A DNA stretch of 64,000 nucleotides from Acidimicrobiaceae bacterium. GTDB taxonomy: Bacteria; Actinomycetota; Acidimicrobiia; Acidimicrobiales; RAAP-2. Every line of letters starts with the position of its first letter. The first letter of the stretch is position 1. The notes beneath the pieces were generated by a model. That model was given only the letters and a program-made list of their open reading frames with translations. It did no database searches and was not told the DNA's origin. Shown in pieces: positions 45,548-53,227 of this stretch. The stretch lies in the NCBI GenBank assembly GCA_003133685.1, contig PKYQ01000018.1, positions 79,105 to 143,104 of the forward strand. Reading direction: 5' to 3'. Both the position numbers and the translations under genes were made by a program.

Positions 45548-46297
45548 TTACATCGCATGCAACTCGCCGACGAGGTACGCGGCGGCGACGTCGACCAGGG
45601 CCACGGCCACGATTCGCTGCTCCAACGTGACCGCCGCGCCCCGCGTTGGGGTCATCACGAATCGACCGACAACGCGGCTGCGCCATTTCGCCAGGATTTC
45701 CGCCTCGGGACCGGGAATGCCGATCTCCTTGGCGGGCCAACGCATTCCGACCAGTTCCACATCGCCGTTGGATTGGATTCGGGCGAGCGGCGGATCCGAA
45801 AGCACTCGGTCGAACCGACACGCGCGCAGCGACAGCAGTCGAATGAGTGAATCAGTCGTCTGGCTGATGATCTCCGTGACCGGCGCCGAGTTCGACGCGA
45901 GCACGGCCACGCCGTGAATCATCGCGACGTACGCCGTGGCGCTGTTCGCCTCCTGCCAATGACGGCGGCTGCGGGCCGCGAGCTCGGTCACGAGCACCCC
46001 GACGACGAAGATCGCGATGGTGGTCTCGAGGTCCGGTCGATGACTTACCGCAAATCGGTCGTAGGGACTGGTGAGAAAGAAATCGAACCAGAGCGCTGCC
46101 GACGCACTGGCCACGATGCCCGCGAGTCGAGGACCGATCACGGCAACGGCGGTGATGACGATCACCATCGTGAGGGCTGCCGCGGTGTTCGCGAAGGTGC
46201 CGCGGAAGGGAACGAGCACCGCCGCAACAACGATGGGCGCGAGGACCGCGGCGGCGACCGCCAGTCGATTGCGATAGAGAAGAACACGGCGTGTCAT
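45548..46297 (-). CDS. Kinase-less DUF4118 membrane protein in the kdp operon
   Basis: A 249-aa protein from ATG 46297 (GGGGG five bases upstream; the track start is four codons earlier). Four TM helices form a DUF4118 block as in KdpD, with ALWFDFFLTSPYDRFAV matching the conserved loop. A GAF-like soluble region follows (about residues 125-245), then the protein stops, with no DHp or ATPase domain. It sits between kdpC and the KdpD-like gene on the same strand. It could be a K+ or turgor sensing subunit that works with one of the two kinases. Confidence 0.8.
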   Translation of the reverse strand: MTRRVLLYRNRLAVAAAVLAPIVVAAVLVPFRGTFANTAAALTMVIVITAVAVIGPRLAGIVASASAALWFDFFLTSPYDRFAVSHRPDLETTIAIFVVGVLVTELAARSRRHWQEANSATAYVAMIHGVAVLASNSAPVTEIISQTTDSLIRLLSLRACRFDRVLSDPPLARIQSNGDVELVGMRWPAKEIGIPGPEAEILAKWRSRVVGRFVMTPTRGAAVTLEQRIVAVALVDVAAAYLVGELHAM

Positions 46298-46393
46298 GGC
46301 GGCCCCCATTTCACGTTGCCGCCGTCAGAGTGTGAATTTCAACACCGGAACCGAAATCTGTCGTCGGGCAGACTTCGGACCTCACCACGTCGT

Positions 46394-50782: not shown

Positions 50783-50872
50783 TTAGAACTTCTCCGGCTT
50801 GAACATGGCGTAGCCGACGTAAACGAACATCACGACGGCGACGCAAAAGAGAATGATCTGGGAAAAACTCAT
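50783..50872 (-). CDS. kdpF: K+-transporting ATPase stabilising subunit KdpF
   Basis: A 29-aa single-TM protein missed by the ORF track. It reads as a hydrophobic helix (IILFCVAVVMFVYVGYAMF) ending in the KdpF-typical KPEKF. The stop abuts the kdpA start and its own ATG overlaps the stop of an upstream micro-ORF (ATGA). KdpF stabilises the KdpABC complex in the membrane. Confidence 0.9.
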   Translation of the reverse strand: MSFSQIILFCVAVVMFVYVGYAMFKPEKF

Positions 50873-50952
50873 ACGCGGTCCAACGCCCAAATGAGTCCGA
50901 GCATCGCCGCGGTGAACCCAATAACGCCTAATGCTGTGAATAGATCTGCCAT
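50869..50952 (-). CDS. Unannotated 27-residue membrane microprotein upstream of kdpF
   Basis: An ORF of 27 codons beginning MADLFTALGVIGFTAAM and ending WALDRV. It is a single predicted TM helix with an acidic N-terminus and a charged C-terminus. GGAG precedes the ATG, and the stop overlaps the kdpF start as ATGA, so it is the first gene of the operon and translationally coupled to kdpF. It is not KdpF itself, which follows. I recall similar short ORFs in other actinobacterial kdp operons but cannot confirm this. A second small pump subunit or regulator is plausible. Confidence 0.7.
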   Translation of the reverse strand: MADLFTALGVIGFTAAMLGLIWALDRV

Positions 50953-51068
50953 GACTCCAGTGTCATCGGCGCGTCCTTAATCCAATCTTAAAAACGAACT
51001 TGGCGTCTTAATAATCTCTTTATTTTGCCTCGCAAAAGGCGAATCGGGCGCTGGACAATACTGAGACG
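50953..51068. promoter_or_regulatory. Divergent kdp control region with TTAAG direct repeats
   Basis: The 116-base gap between the kdp operon and the histidine kinase gene is AT-rich. The minus strand has three similar elements, ATTAAGAC, TTTAAGAT and ATTAAGGA, whose TTAA cores start at 51008, 50988 and 50977 (spacings 20 and 11, about whole helical turns). OmpR-class regulators such as KdpE bind direct repeats of this kind, so these are candidate KdpE sites. For the kinase gene, AATACT lies six bases before the ATG. Confidence 0.45.
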
Positions 51069-52538
51069 ATGCGCAAACATCTCGTCGGATCGGTCGTCGG
51101 AGTGGCGAGTGTCCTCATACTCGGATTCGCGATGCTGCCCCTTCGTTCGCACATCAGCGTGTCGACCGCGGCGCTGATCCTCGTCGTACCGGTCGTGGTC
51201 GGATCCGCTATCGGGGGAATACGAGCCGGAATTGCCAGCGTGATCGCCGGGTTCCTCGTCTACGACTACGGCTACATACCGCCCTACAAGACACTCGATG
51301 TCGGCACGCCACAGAACTGGACCGCCCTCGCCGTCTACGTCATCGTCATGTTGGCGATCGCGAGCGTCGTGGCGAGCCTGGATTCATCGAGAATCGAGGC
51401 GAAGCGCGGCGCCGAGGCGGCGCACCGCCTCTCAGAACTCTCCGAACACTTGGTCGGCGATCGCCCCGTCGACGACCTGCTCGAGACCATCGTGTCGGCG
51501 GTCCACGTCGTCTTCGAGATCCCCGGTGTCTCGCTTCTGGTCCTCGACGAGGGGCTCTTGAAGGTTGTGGCTTCCGCGGGCGATCCGCTCTCCGAAGAGG
51601 AACTCGCACAACTCGGACCACACTCGGGACAGCCAATCAGCGTTGGCACGGACACCGAATCGTCCGGAGAACTACGCACAATCGCGCTTTCGGCGTCCGG
51701 TCACGCGGTCGGTATCCTGGCGCTTCGCGGTCTACCAACCTCAAAGAACGATCGCGCCGTCCTCACCACGTTTGCCAACGACGCGGCGTTGGCGTTAGAG
51801 CGCGCGCAACTACGCGAGCAAGCTCTGCGCTCGAAACTCCTTGAAGAGGTTGACCGCTTTCGCCAGAGTTTGATGGGCGCAGTGTCCCACGACCTTCGAA
51901 CTCCTCTCGCGACCATCAAAGTCGCCTCTTCGACACTGGCGAACCGGTCCGCCTCGCTCTCGAGGGAGGAACTGGCCGAGCTCTACAGGCTCATCGAGGT
52001 CGAGTCGGATCGTCTCACGCGATTGGTTTCAAATCTCCTAGACATCACGCGCATCGAAGCCGGAGTCTTCACCGTCCACCCGACACCGACATCCATCCGA
52101 GAGTTGGTGCGCGAAGCGGTGAATGCAATGGAACCGACCTTGAGCACTCACCGCGTCGATTCGATCGTTCCGATGAACTTGCCAGCGGTGAACGTCGACC
52201 CGCTCTTGATCGGCCAAGTGTTGATCAATCTCCTCGACAACGCGATTCGACACTCGCCCGTTGACGGCGTCATCACCGTCGAAGCGCGACGAGATCGCAA
52301 CCAGACGATTCTCTCGGTCACCGATCAAGGACCTGGCATCGCGCCCAACAAGCGACAGAAGGTCTTCGAACGATTCGCACAACTCGACACCGGGGGCCGA
52401 GCGGGACTCGGCCTCACGATCGCCAAGACCTTCGTCGAAGCCCACGGAGAGGAGATTTGGTACGAGGATGCCCCGAACCACGGCGCACGATTCGTCTTCA
52501 CCCTCCCGGTGGCTGACGAGACCACGACGCTACGGTAA
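51069..52538 (+). CDS. Short KdpD-like histidine kinase (DUF4118-GAF-HisKA-HATPase)
   Basis: A 489-aa sensor kinase. Four TM helices make a DUF4118 block (VPVVVGSAIGGIRAGIASVIAG, with FLVYDYGYIPPYKT), followed by a GAF domain (about residues 125-245), DHp and HATPase domains. The H-box AVSHDLRTPLATIK is intact (His274), as are NLLDNAIRHSP, DQGPGIAP and GRAGLGLTIAK. It lacks the N-terminal KdpD and USP domains. It is divergent from the kdp operon and followed after five bases by kdpE, so it is the likely active kinase for KdpE. Confidence 0.9.
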   Translation: MRKHLVGSVVGVASVLILGFAMLPLRSHISVSTAALILVVPVVVGSAIGGIRAGIASVIAGFLVYDYGYIPPYKTLDVGTPQNWTALAVYVIVMLAIASVVASLDSSRIEAKRGAEAAHRLSELSEHLVGDRPVDDLLETIVSAVHVVFEIPGVSLLVLDEGLLKVVASAGDPLSEEELAQLGPHSGQPISVGTDTESSGELRTIALSASGHAVGILALRGLPTSKNDRAVLTTFANDAALALERAQLREQALRSKLLEEVDRFRQSLMGAVSHDLRTPLATIKVASSTLANRSASLSREELAELYRLIEVESDRLTRLVSNLLDITRIEAGVFTVHPTPTSIRELVREAVNAMEPTLSTHRVDSIVPMNLPAVNVDPLLIGQVLINLLDNAIRHSPVDGVITVEARRDRNQTILSVTDQGPGIAPNKRQKVFERFAQLDTGGRAGLGLTIAKTFVEAHGEEIWYEDAPNHGARFVFTLPVADETTTLR

Positions 52539-52543
52539 ACGTT

Positions 52544-53227
52544 ATGGCAAAGGTTCTGGTGATCGACGACGACCCATCACTCAATCGAGCGTTACGCCTG
52601 GGCCTTCAGGCCGGCGGCCACGACGTCACGACCGCCTCAACCGGCGAACACGGCATCTCCCAAACCGCGCTCACCGCGCCGGACGTGGTCGTATTGGACT
52701 TGGGACTGCCCGACATGGACGGTATCGAGGTGTGTCGCACTATTCGTGGGTGGAGCGACGTACCCATCATCATCCTCTCGGCGATCGGCGCCGAGAATCG
52801 CAAAATCACTGCGCTCGACGCCGGGGCGAACGACTACGTGACCAAGCCCTTCAGCATGCCCGAACTCGAGGCGCGGATACGGGTCGTCACTCGTGGTCGT
52901 GGCCTCGACCATGACGATCCCGCCGAGACCACCTTGACCTGTGGCACGCTCGAACTTGATCTAGTCCATCACGACGTGACGCGCGACGGTGTCAATGTCG
53001 CCCTGACCACCAAGGAGTTCGAGGTCCTGGCATTCCTCGCTCGCCACTCGGGAAAGACGTGCACGCATCAGATGATTCTCAGTGCCGTCTGGGGTAGCGG
53101 CTACGGTGCCGAAGCGCAGTACGTGCACGCCTACGTCCACCGGTTGCGCCAGAAGTTGAACGACGAGTCGGCCGAACTCATCAACACGATCACGGGCGTC
53201 GGCTATTCCCTCAACTGCGCCGACTGA
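52544..53227 (+). CDS. kdpE: OmpR-family response regulator KdpE
   Basis: A 227-aa regulator. The receiver domain has the acidic pocket VIDDDPS, phospho-acceptor Asp52 in VVLDLGLPDMDG and Lys in YVTKPFS. The winged-helix domain contains LTTKEFEVLAFLARHSGKTCTHQMIL and VHAYVHRLRQKLN. It lies five bases after the kinase gene. By synteny with kdpFABC it should activate that operon under low K+. Confidence 0.95.
   Translation: MAKVLVIDDDPSLNRALRLGLQAGGHDVTTASTGEHGISQTALTAPDVVVLDLGLPDMDGIEVCRTIRGWSDVPIIILSAIGAENRKITALDAGANDYVTKPFSMPELEARIRVVTRGRGLDHDDPAETTLTCGTLELDLVHHDVTRDGVNVALTTKEFEVLAFLARHSGKTCTHQMILSAVWGSGYGAEAQYVHAYVHRLRQKLNDESAELINTITGVGYSLNCAD

Follow-up and report, generated by a model that had tools for sequence, protein, structure and literature searches.

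KdpFABC is the textbook K+ pump, and it is understood almost wholly from E. coli. In 1999, KdpF was reportedly found by Gassel to be part of the E. coli complex and to stabilise it in vitro. Small accessory membrane subunits also occur in other complexes (CydX and AcrZ), and MgrB, which acts on PhoQ, provides a model for membrane peptides with a regulatory role. In mycobacteria, KdpF itself has been described as a regulatory peptide (PMC3618439, PMC5401905). Moreover, the kdpFABC transcript made by M. smegmatis under K+ limitation was reported to start 120 nt before kdpF; this stretch was called a 5'-UTR, and the annotated MSMEG_5391 was rejected by the authors (Ali et al. 2017, PMC5401905).

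In this current study, a 64,000-nt stretch of DNA from an Acidimicrobiaceae bacterium (the window) was analysed, in which an unannotated 27-residue membrane microprotein had been predicted at the head of a kdp operon. As listed in Table 1, the ORF was present as claimed, with an ATG start, one hydrophobic segment (one TM helix), an acidic N-terminus and the C-terminus D-R-V, and the predicted ATGA overlap with kdpF was also found. The order on the minus strand is microprotein ORF, kdpF, kdpA, kdpB, kdpC, and all four kdp genes are intact. KdpF, KdpA and KdpB pass the curated thresholds of Pfam or NCBIfam. A 253-aa protein encoded after kdpC (45548-46309, minus strand) resembles the membrane part of KdpD only (positions 404-501; weak, E=0.0075). 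Together with a kinase that lacks the KdpD N-terminal half, it makes the KdpD sensor of the window seem split or rearranged.

Table 1. Features of the kdp locus in the window.
Feature	Position	Strand	Evidence
Microprotein ORF, ATG-started, 27 codons, MADLFTALGVIGFTAAMLGLIWALDRV	50869..50952	-	Sequence, homologues, frame-specific purifying selection
ATGA overlap (microprotein stop TGA and kdpF start ATG)	50869..50872	-	Sequence
kdpF, 29 aa, MSFSQIILFCVAVVMFVYVGYAMFKPEKF	50783..50872	-	Pfam PF09604, E=2.7e-6, exceeds curated cut-off
kdpA, 562 aa	49094..50782	-	PF03814, E=4e-213; TIGR00680
kdpB, 686 aa	47034..49094	-	TIGR01497, 1052 bits
kdpC, 208 aa	46394..47020	-	KdpC profiles, best E=5e-32, under curated cut-off
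KdpD-like histidine kinase, divergent, without KdpD N-terminal half	51069..52538	+	Matches positions 396-883 of the 895-position KdpD profile
OmpR-family response regulator, likely KdpE	52544..53227	+	KdpE PRK10529 among best profile matches, E=1.3e-52, below cut-off
-10-like hexamer GACACT, -12..-7 of microprotein ATG	50959..50964	-	xAxxxT in 21/21 related loci
Candidate KdpE (OmpR/PhoB-type) box, TTAAG direct repeats 11 bp apart, at -39 and -28	50976..50991	-	T/A enriched in same columns, 21 loci
Further candidate half-site TATTAAGA at -61	51006..51013	-	Sequence pattern

The microprotein had been predicted to be distinct from KdpF, and the family searches agreed. When the 27-mer was compared with Pfam and NCBIfam, no Pfam family was found at E<=10 and no NCBIfam family above noise; searching NCBIfam with 25 homologues gave a single weak KdpF match (E=0.099). 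Searches of the family against Pfam, NCBIfam and PDB returned only weak, unrelated single matches, the best being PetM (E=3e-4) in 1 of 25 members, and no solved structure of a relative was found in PDB. Paralogy with KdpF was considered and rejected, as hhalign of the two family alignments gave a probability of 0.8% over one aligned column. In the KdpF alignment, P26, E27 and F29 are nearly invariant, and the 27-mer family does not share the resulting P-E-[RK]-F end.

To follow the ORF beyond the window, kdpA was located in 104 of 397 genomes of the window's phylum, and the DNA before each kdpA was read for short ORFs. Directly before kdpF, a hydrophobic ORF of ~27 residues ending in a charged residue, R/K and L/V was recurrent. 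It was also present in nearly all of 80 loci added from named genomes, with carriers in Methylobacterium, Sphingomonas, Bradyrhizobium, Rhizobium, Myxococcus, Chloroflexota, Gemmatimonadota, Planctomycetota and Methylobacter. Further samples covered Pseudomonadota, Bacteroidota, Acidobacteriota and Chloroflexota loci, plus plasmids. By a broader model, which includes its own training sequences, 253 of 335 kdpF-bearing loci carried a homologous ~27-residue single-TM ORF beside kdpF, and no locus in the sample had the 27-mer without KdpF. Homologues were found in Actinomycetota, Pseudomonadota, Chloroflexota, Acidobacteriota, Deinococcota, Bacteroidota and other phyla.

For a cross-phylum test, every short ORF preceding kdpA was scored with profiles trained on Actinomycetota only or on Pseudomonadota only. 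Reverse-strand and shuffled ORFs served as controls, about 3,500 for each model, and reached at most 5.8 bits with the Actinomycetota model and 6.9 bits with the Pseudomonadota model. At a score of at least 8 bits, the Actinomycetota-only model detected the ORF in 56/89 Pseudomonadota, 19/25 Chloroflexota, 12/18 Acidobacteriota and 5/28 Bacteroidota loci, and the Pseudomonadota-only model detected it in 46/107 Actinomycetota loci. Genome-wide, strong family matches (E<=1e-3) occurred in 49 of the 104 kdpA-positive genomes versus none of the 293 kdpA-negative genomes (Fisher p=8e-34), a figure that includes some Actinomycetota sequences from the family alignment itself, whose match is built in. 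In 15 other genomes or plasmids, the placeable matches with E<1e-3 sit at kdp loci. Detectable copies were absent from E. coli, many Pseudomonas-like loci, Halobacterium, Lactiplantibacillus, several Actinomycetota families and part of the Bacteroidota; the pump can therefore work without the peptide. Strongly diverged candidates ending in F-E/D-x-I (some in F-E-K-I) precede kdpF in seven Bacteroidota loci (L241, L242, L244-L248) at the edge of detection, and may represent a Bacteroidota branch of the family.

The synonymous-site test that had been suggested as a check on the frame was also run. Over the ORF, uncorrected pN/pS was lowest in Bradyrhizobium-like (0.33) and Rhizobiaceae-like (0.35) loci, followed by the window's clade (0.41) and by Streptomyces-like (0.51) and Mycobacterium-like (0.54) loci, whereas shifted frames gave 0.93-1.43. 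In some clades the synonymous sites are close to saturated, so these values overstate the true ratios. With KdpF of the window's clade at 0.45 as the benchmark, the microprotein frame is under purifying selection like that of kdpF. Across 243 aligned members, the conserved residues are D3, F13-F14, often Y20 and C24, and E/D25-R/K26-L27 (the C-terminal residue mostly L/V/I). The mean net charge is -0.9 at the N-terminus and +0.5 at the C-terminus, a bias consistent with an N-out/C-in topology, and the peptide is thus likely a single-helix inner-membrane protein so oriented. We propose a Kdp-linked microprotein family defined by a 26-30 residue core, a single hydrophobic helix, D3, F13/14, a C-terminal E/D-R-L, and a gene adjacent to kdpF/kdpA. 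The window peptide has D3, F13 and D25-R26-V27 and scores with the family model; it belonged to the family seed, and Pseudomonadota-only models also detect its phylum. In five loci of Acidimicrobiia-like and other Actinomycetota (L014, L016, L028, L061 and L147), C-terminal tails of ~10-25 residues, often D/E/P-rich, follow C-D/E-R.

The C-terminus of KdpF varied with the presence of the peptide. P-E-[RKW]-F was found in 209/253 loci with the peptide versus 34/82 without it (p=5e-12, pooled), and the association also held within Pseudomonadota and within Actinomycetota; it is confounded by phylogeny, and hints at a joint function. As for the C-terminal motif of the peptide, the D/E-R codons in ATGA loci double as an SD-like GGA(G) for kdpF, and some of the conservation there could thus lie at the DNA level. 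The motif was kept, however, even where kdpF lies 10-16 nt away, as in many alphaproteobacteria, which have such a gap in place of the overlap and still conserve C-E/D-R-L.

Start signals were then compared. The original prediction had assigned the ORF its own ribosome binding site, and here it found no support in the window: the sole Shine-Dalgarno-like string, GGAG at 50958..50955, lies too near the ATG, with just two bases between them. Nor was a shared Shine-Dalgarno site seen in 21 loci of the window's clade and its nearest relatives. All 21 have an xAxxxT hexamer at -12..-7 or -13..-8, ending 6-7 nt before the start codon, compared with 0-10 of the 21 loci for other 3-nt windows. Upstream of it, T/A-rich half-sites ~11 bp apart recur at -39 and -28, with another near -60. 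Leaderless genes are established in actinobacteria. With 6 nt between the -10 element and the start codon, transcription is expected to begin at the ATG itself, and a leaderless mRNA with its 5' end at or beside the microprotein ATG would be the better reading for the window's clade. The half-sites resemble OmpR/PhoB-family boxes, so that KdpE, acting at these candidate boxes, is the likely activator of the microprotein-kdpFABC promoter. In Streptomyces-like loci, by comparison, an invariant and well-placed GGAG was found at -10..-7 of the ORF's ATG in 19/19. Signals anchored on the microprotein start codon (GGAG in 19/19, xAxxxT in 21/21) count in favour of a real gene. For kdpF in the window's clade, there is at best a weak GGA(C/G) site within the last codons of the 27-mer, which makes re-initiation of ribosomes at the ATGA, coupling the 27-mer to kdpF, likely.

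The published mycobacterial data can be read against these results. In nine mycobacterial-type loci, a 27-codon ORF starts 80 nt before kdpF; with the transcript starting at 120 nt, it would be transcribed whole, inside the "5'-UTR", as judged from these nine loci. Judged by the construct TTG-n120-GTG, MSMEG_5391 appears to be in the kdpF frame and not in that of the 27-mer. The published M. smegmatis KdpE box had no exact match in 298 genomes of the mycobacterial genus, and near-matches with 3-4 substitutions were present upstream of the ORF in several related loci. No name or description of the ORF was found in the openly available literature, and an earlier description elsewhere is possible; Rv1028A and candidate kdp gene names yielded nothing relevant in the literature, and the main texts of the sORFdb, Streptomyces smORF and Sinorhizobium Ribo-seq papers make no mention of kdp. 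Plasmid records of Rhizobium phaseoli, Azospirillum brasilense and Paracoccus list kdpF and no 27-mer gene, in a gene table that is incomplete by its own description.

Additional copies were observed in two genomes. The window's own genome has, on contig C25, a second kdp cluster (L372:7289-11225) with its own 27-mer MADLLVVLGTVTFVGAMLALIWGLGRV and kdpF, whereas its kdpA and kdpB give only fragmentary matches that lack internal stretches and are either pseudogenes or an assembly fault. A third remnant on the same contig (L372:2685-2976) combines an intact kdpF with a 27-mer whose frame is broken and with no more than about 46 residues of KdpA. In genome G179, a second 27-mer-like ORF, MSDFAFTAVVLGFFALCVAYTLVCTRTVGTDRHDPSESNNGAKR (L373; G179:C17:530136-530213), overlaps the start of a DUF4118 gene by ATGA, and the usual 27-mer, kdpF and kdpA follow. 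A duplication is possible, and the position before the DUF4118 gene hints at a connection with the KdpD membrane domain.

Whether the ORF encodes anything at all can be judged from these comparisons. An ORF that is short, unannotated and without a family match could be a chance product or an artefact of a GC-rich region; however, homologue profile scores reached 54 bits in independent phyla when none of about 3,500 control ORFs exceeded 6.9, kdp-negative genomes gave 0/293, and the start signals are conserved. The search of related kdp operons for short ORFs beside kdpF found the frame conserved at every level, from the clade through the phylum to other phyla, where a lack of conservation had been named as the outcome that would speak against the prediction. 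The cross-phylum conservation already refutes an origin by chance, to which we assign a negligible probability, and the microprotein ORF is almost certainly a real gene. A cis-acting leader, whose translation only loads ribosomes for kdpF or attenuates it while the peptide itself is inert, would account for the ATGA/GTGA coupling, for the first position in many operons, and for the fact that in the window's clade the ORF has the only obvious ribosome entry before kdpF. The amino acid sequence, however, is conserved between phyla under purifying selection at the protein level, and the coupling is not: the homologue lies -4 to +40 nt from kdpF in 245 of the 253 positive loci, and the 4-nt overlap occurs in 113 of the 253. 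The fixed 5' position of a leader peptide or attenuator was also not found, since the 27-mer directly follows the kdpB stop in G107 (kdpB-[27-mer]-kdpF-like-kdpA), and the order is kdpF-[27-mer]-kdpA in Allomeiothermus silvanus and two Pseudomonadota (L358, L362); in Deinococcus radiodurans, kdpB is upstream, the 27-mer overlaps kdpF, and kdpA follows directly. Such positions, internal to the operon or behind kdpF, exclude a mere leader and leave this account very improbable; judging from the sequences, it is the peptide, and not the coupling, that evolution keeps.

With regard to function, the best inference from linkage, co-translation and size is a small accessory protein like KdpF, which would serve the KdpA/KdpF part of the pump as a second such subunit or as an assembly partner; we estimate the probability of this reading at roughly 60%. 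A KdpE-type promoter would start a leaderless mRNA at the microprotein ATG, ribosomes would translate the microprotein first and then enter kdpF at the ATGA overlap, and the peptide, KdpF and the pump would thereby be made together, with the peptide binding the KdpA/KdpF part as accessory subunit or assembly partner. The original suggestion of a product made in step with the pump agrees with the ATGA coupling and with the anatomy of promoter and start. The same peptide could instead regulate, acting on KdpD, or inhibiting or tuning the pump, without being a stable subunit. Its size and topology class are those of known regulators, it would be co-expressed under KdpDE, KdpF itself is reported to be regulatory in mycobacteria (PMC3618439, PMC5401905), and the second ORF of G179 precedes a KdpD-membrane-domain-like gene. 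On the other hand, its position tracks kdpF-kdpA and not kdpD, it remains beside kdpF-kdpA in G107 and Allomeiothermus, and the kinase of the window is divergent. Linkage in differing gene orders would favour a subunit; linkage to kdpF-kdpA is also expected of a peptide regulating the pump or KdpD. We consider regulation unlikely, and the main rival if it is directed at KdpD. Less likely still is an assembly or insertion factor that acts transiently, for example in inserting or folding KdpA or KdpF, and then leaves the mature pump. Invariable translation next to KdpF and KdpA, a plain hydrophobic helix and dispensability in some lineages would suit such a factor; the sequence does not separate it from a stable subunit. 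On the boldest reading, the KdpFABC of most bacteria might be a five-subunit pump, with a conserved ~27-residue helix, absent from the E. coli model, stoichiometric at the KdpA/KdpF part and tuning assembly or transport, a tentative proposal to which we give somewhat less than even odds.

Taken together, the sequence comparisons indicate that an unnamed microprotein family is linked to kdpF-kdpA across bacteria, one that was probably overlooked because the gene is missing from E. coli. Should the peptide prove to be a subunit, structures, annotation and genetic studies have left out a component of most bacterial Kdp pumps, and mycobacterial "kdpF promoter" constructs probably carried the 27-mer ORF unnoticed. 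The family can be tested in tractable hosts (Streptomyces, Sinorhizobium, Azospirillum and M. smegmatis), and a profile model would enable annotation pipelines to call the gene.

Among the known systems, the "120-bp 5'-UTR" of M. smegmatis (PMC5401905) was called untranslated, whereas a coding 27-codon ORF is proposed here. MgrB-type sensor-kinase regulators are likewise single-helix peptides co-regulated with a two-component system, but family searches revealed no resemblance, and the microprotein is linked to kdpF-kdpA rather than to kdpD. AcrZ/CydX-type subunits, too, are small proteins of one helix that are encoded with a larger membrane complex or act on it, and annotation often misses them; their partner complexes differ from the pump that the Kdp microprotein may bind. 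KdpF (PF09604 / TIGR02115) is similarly a single-TM peptide, of ~29 aa, encoded directly before kdpA and translated with it. The microprotein differs from KdpF in ending with (C)-E/D-R-L instead of P-E-R-F, in belonging to another sequence family, in being absent from E. coli, and in being additional to an intact KdpF.
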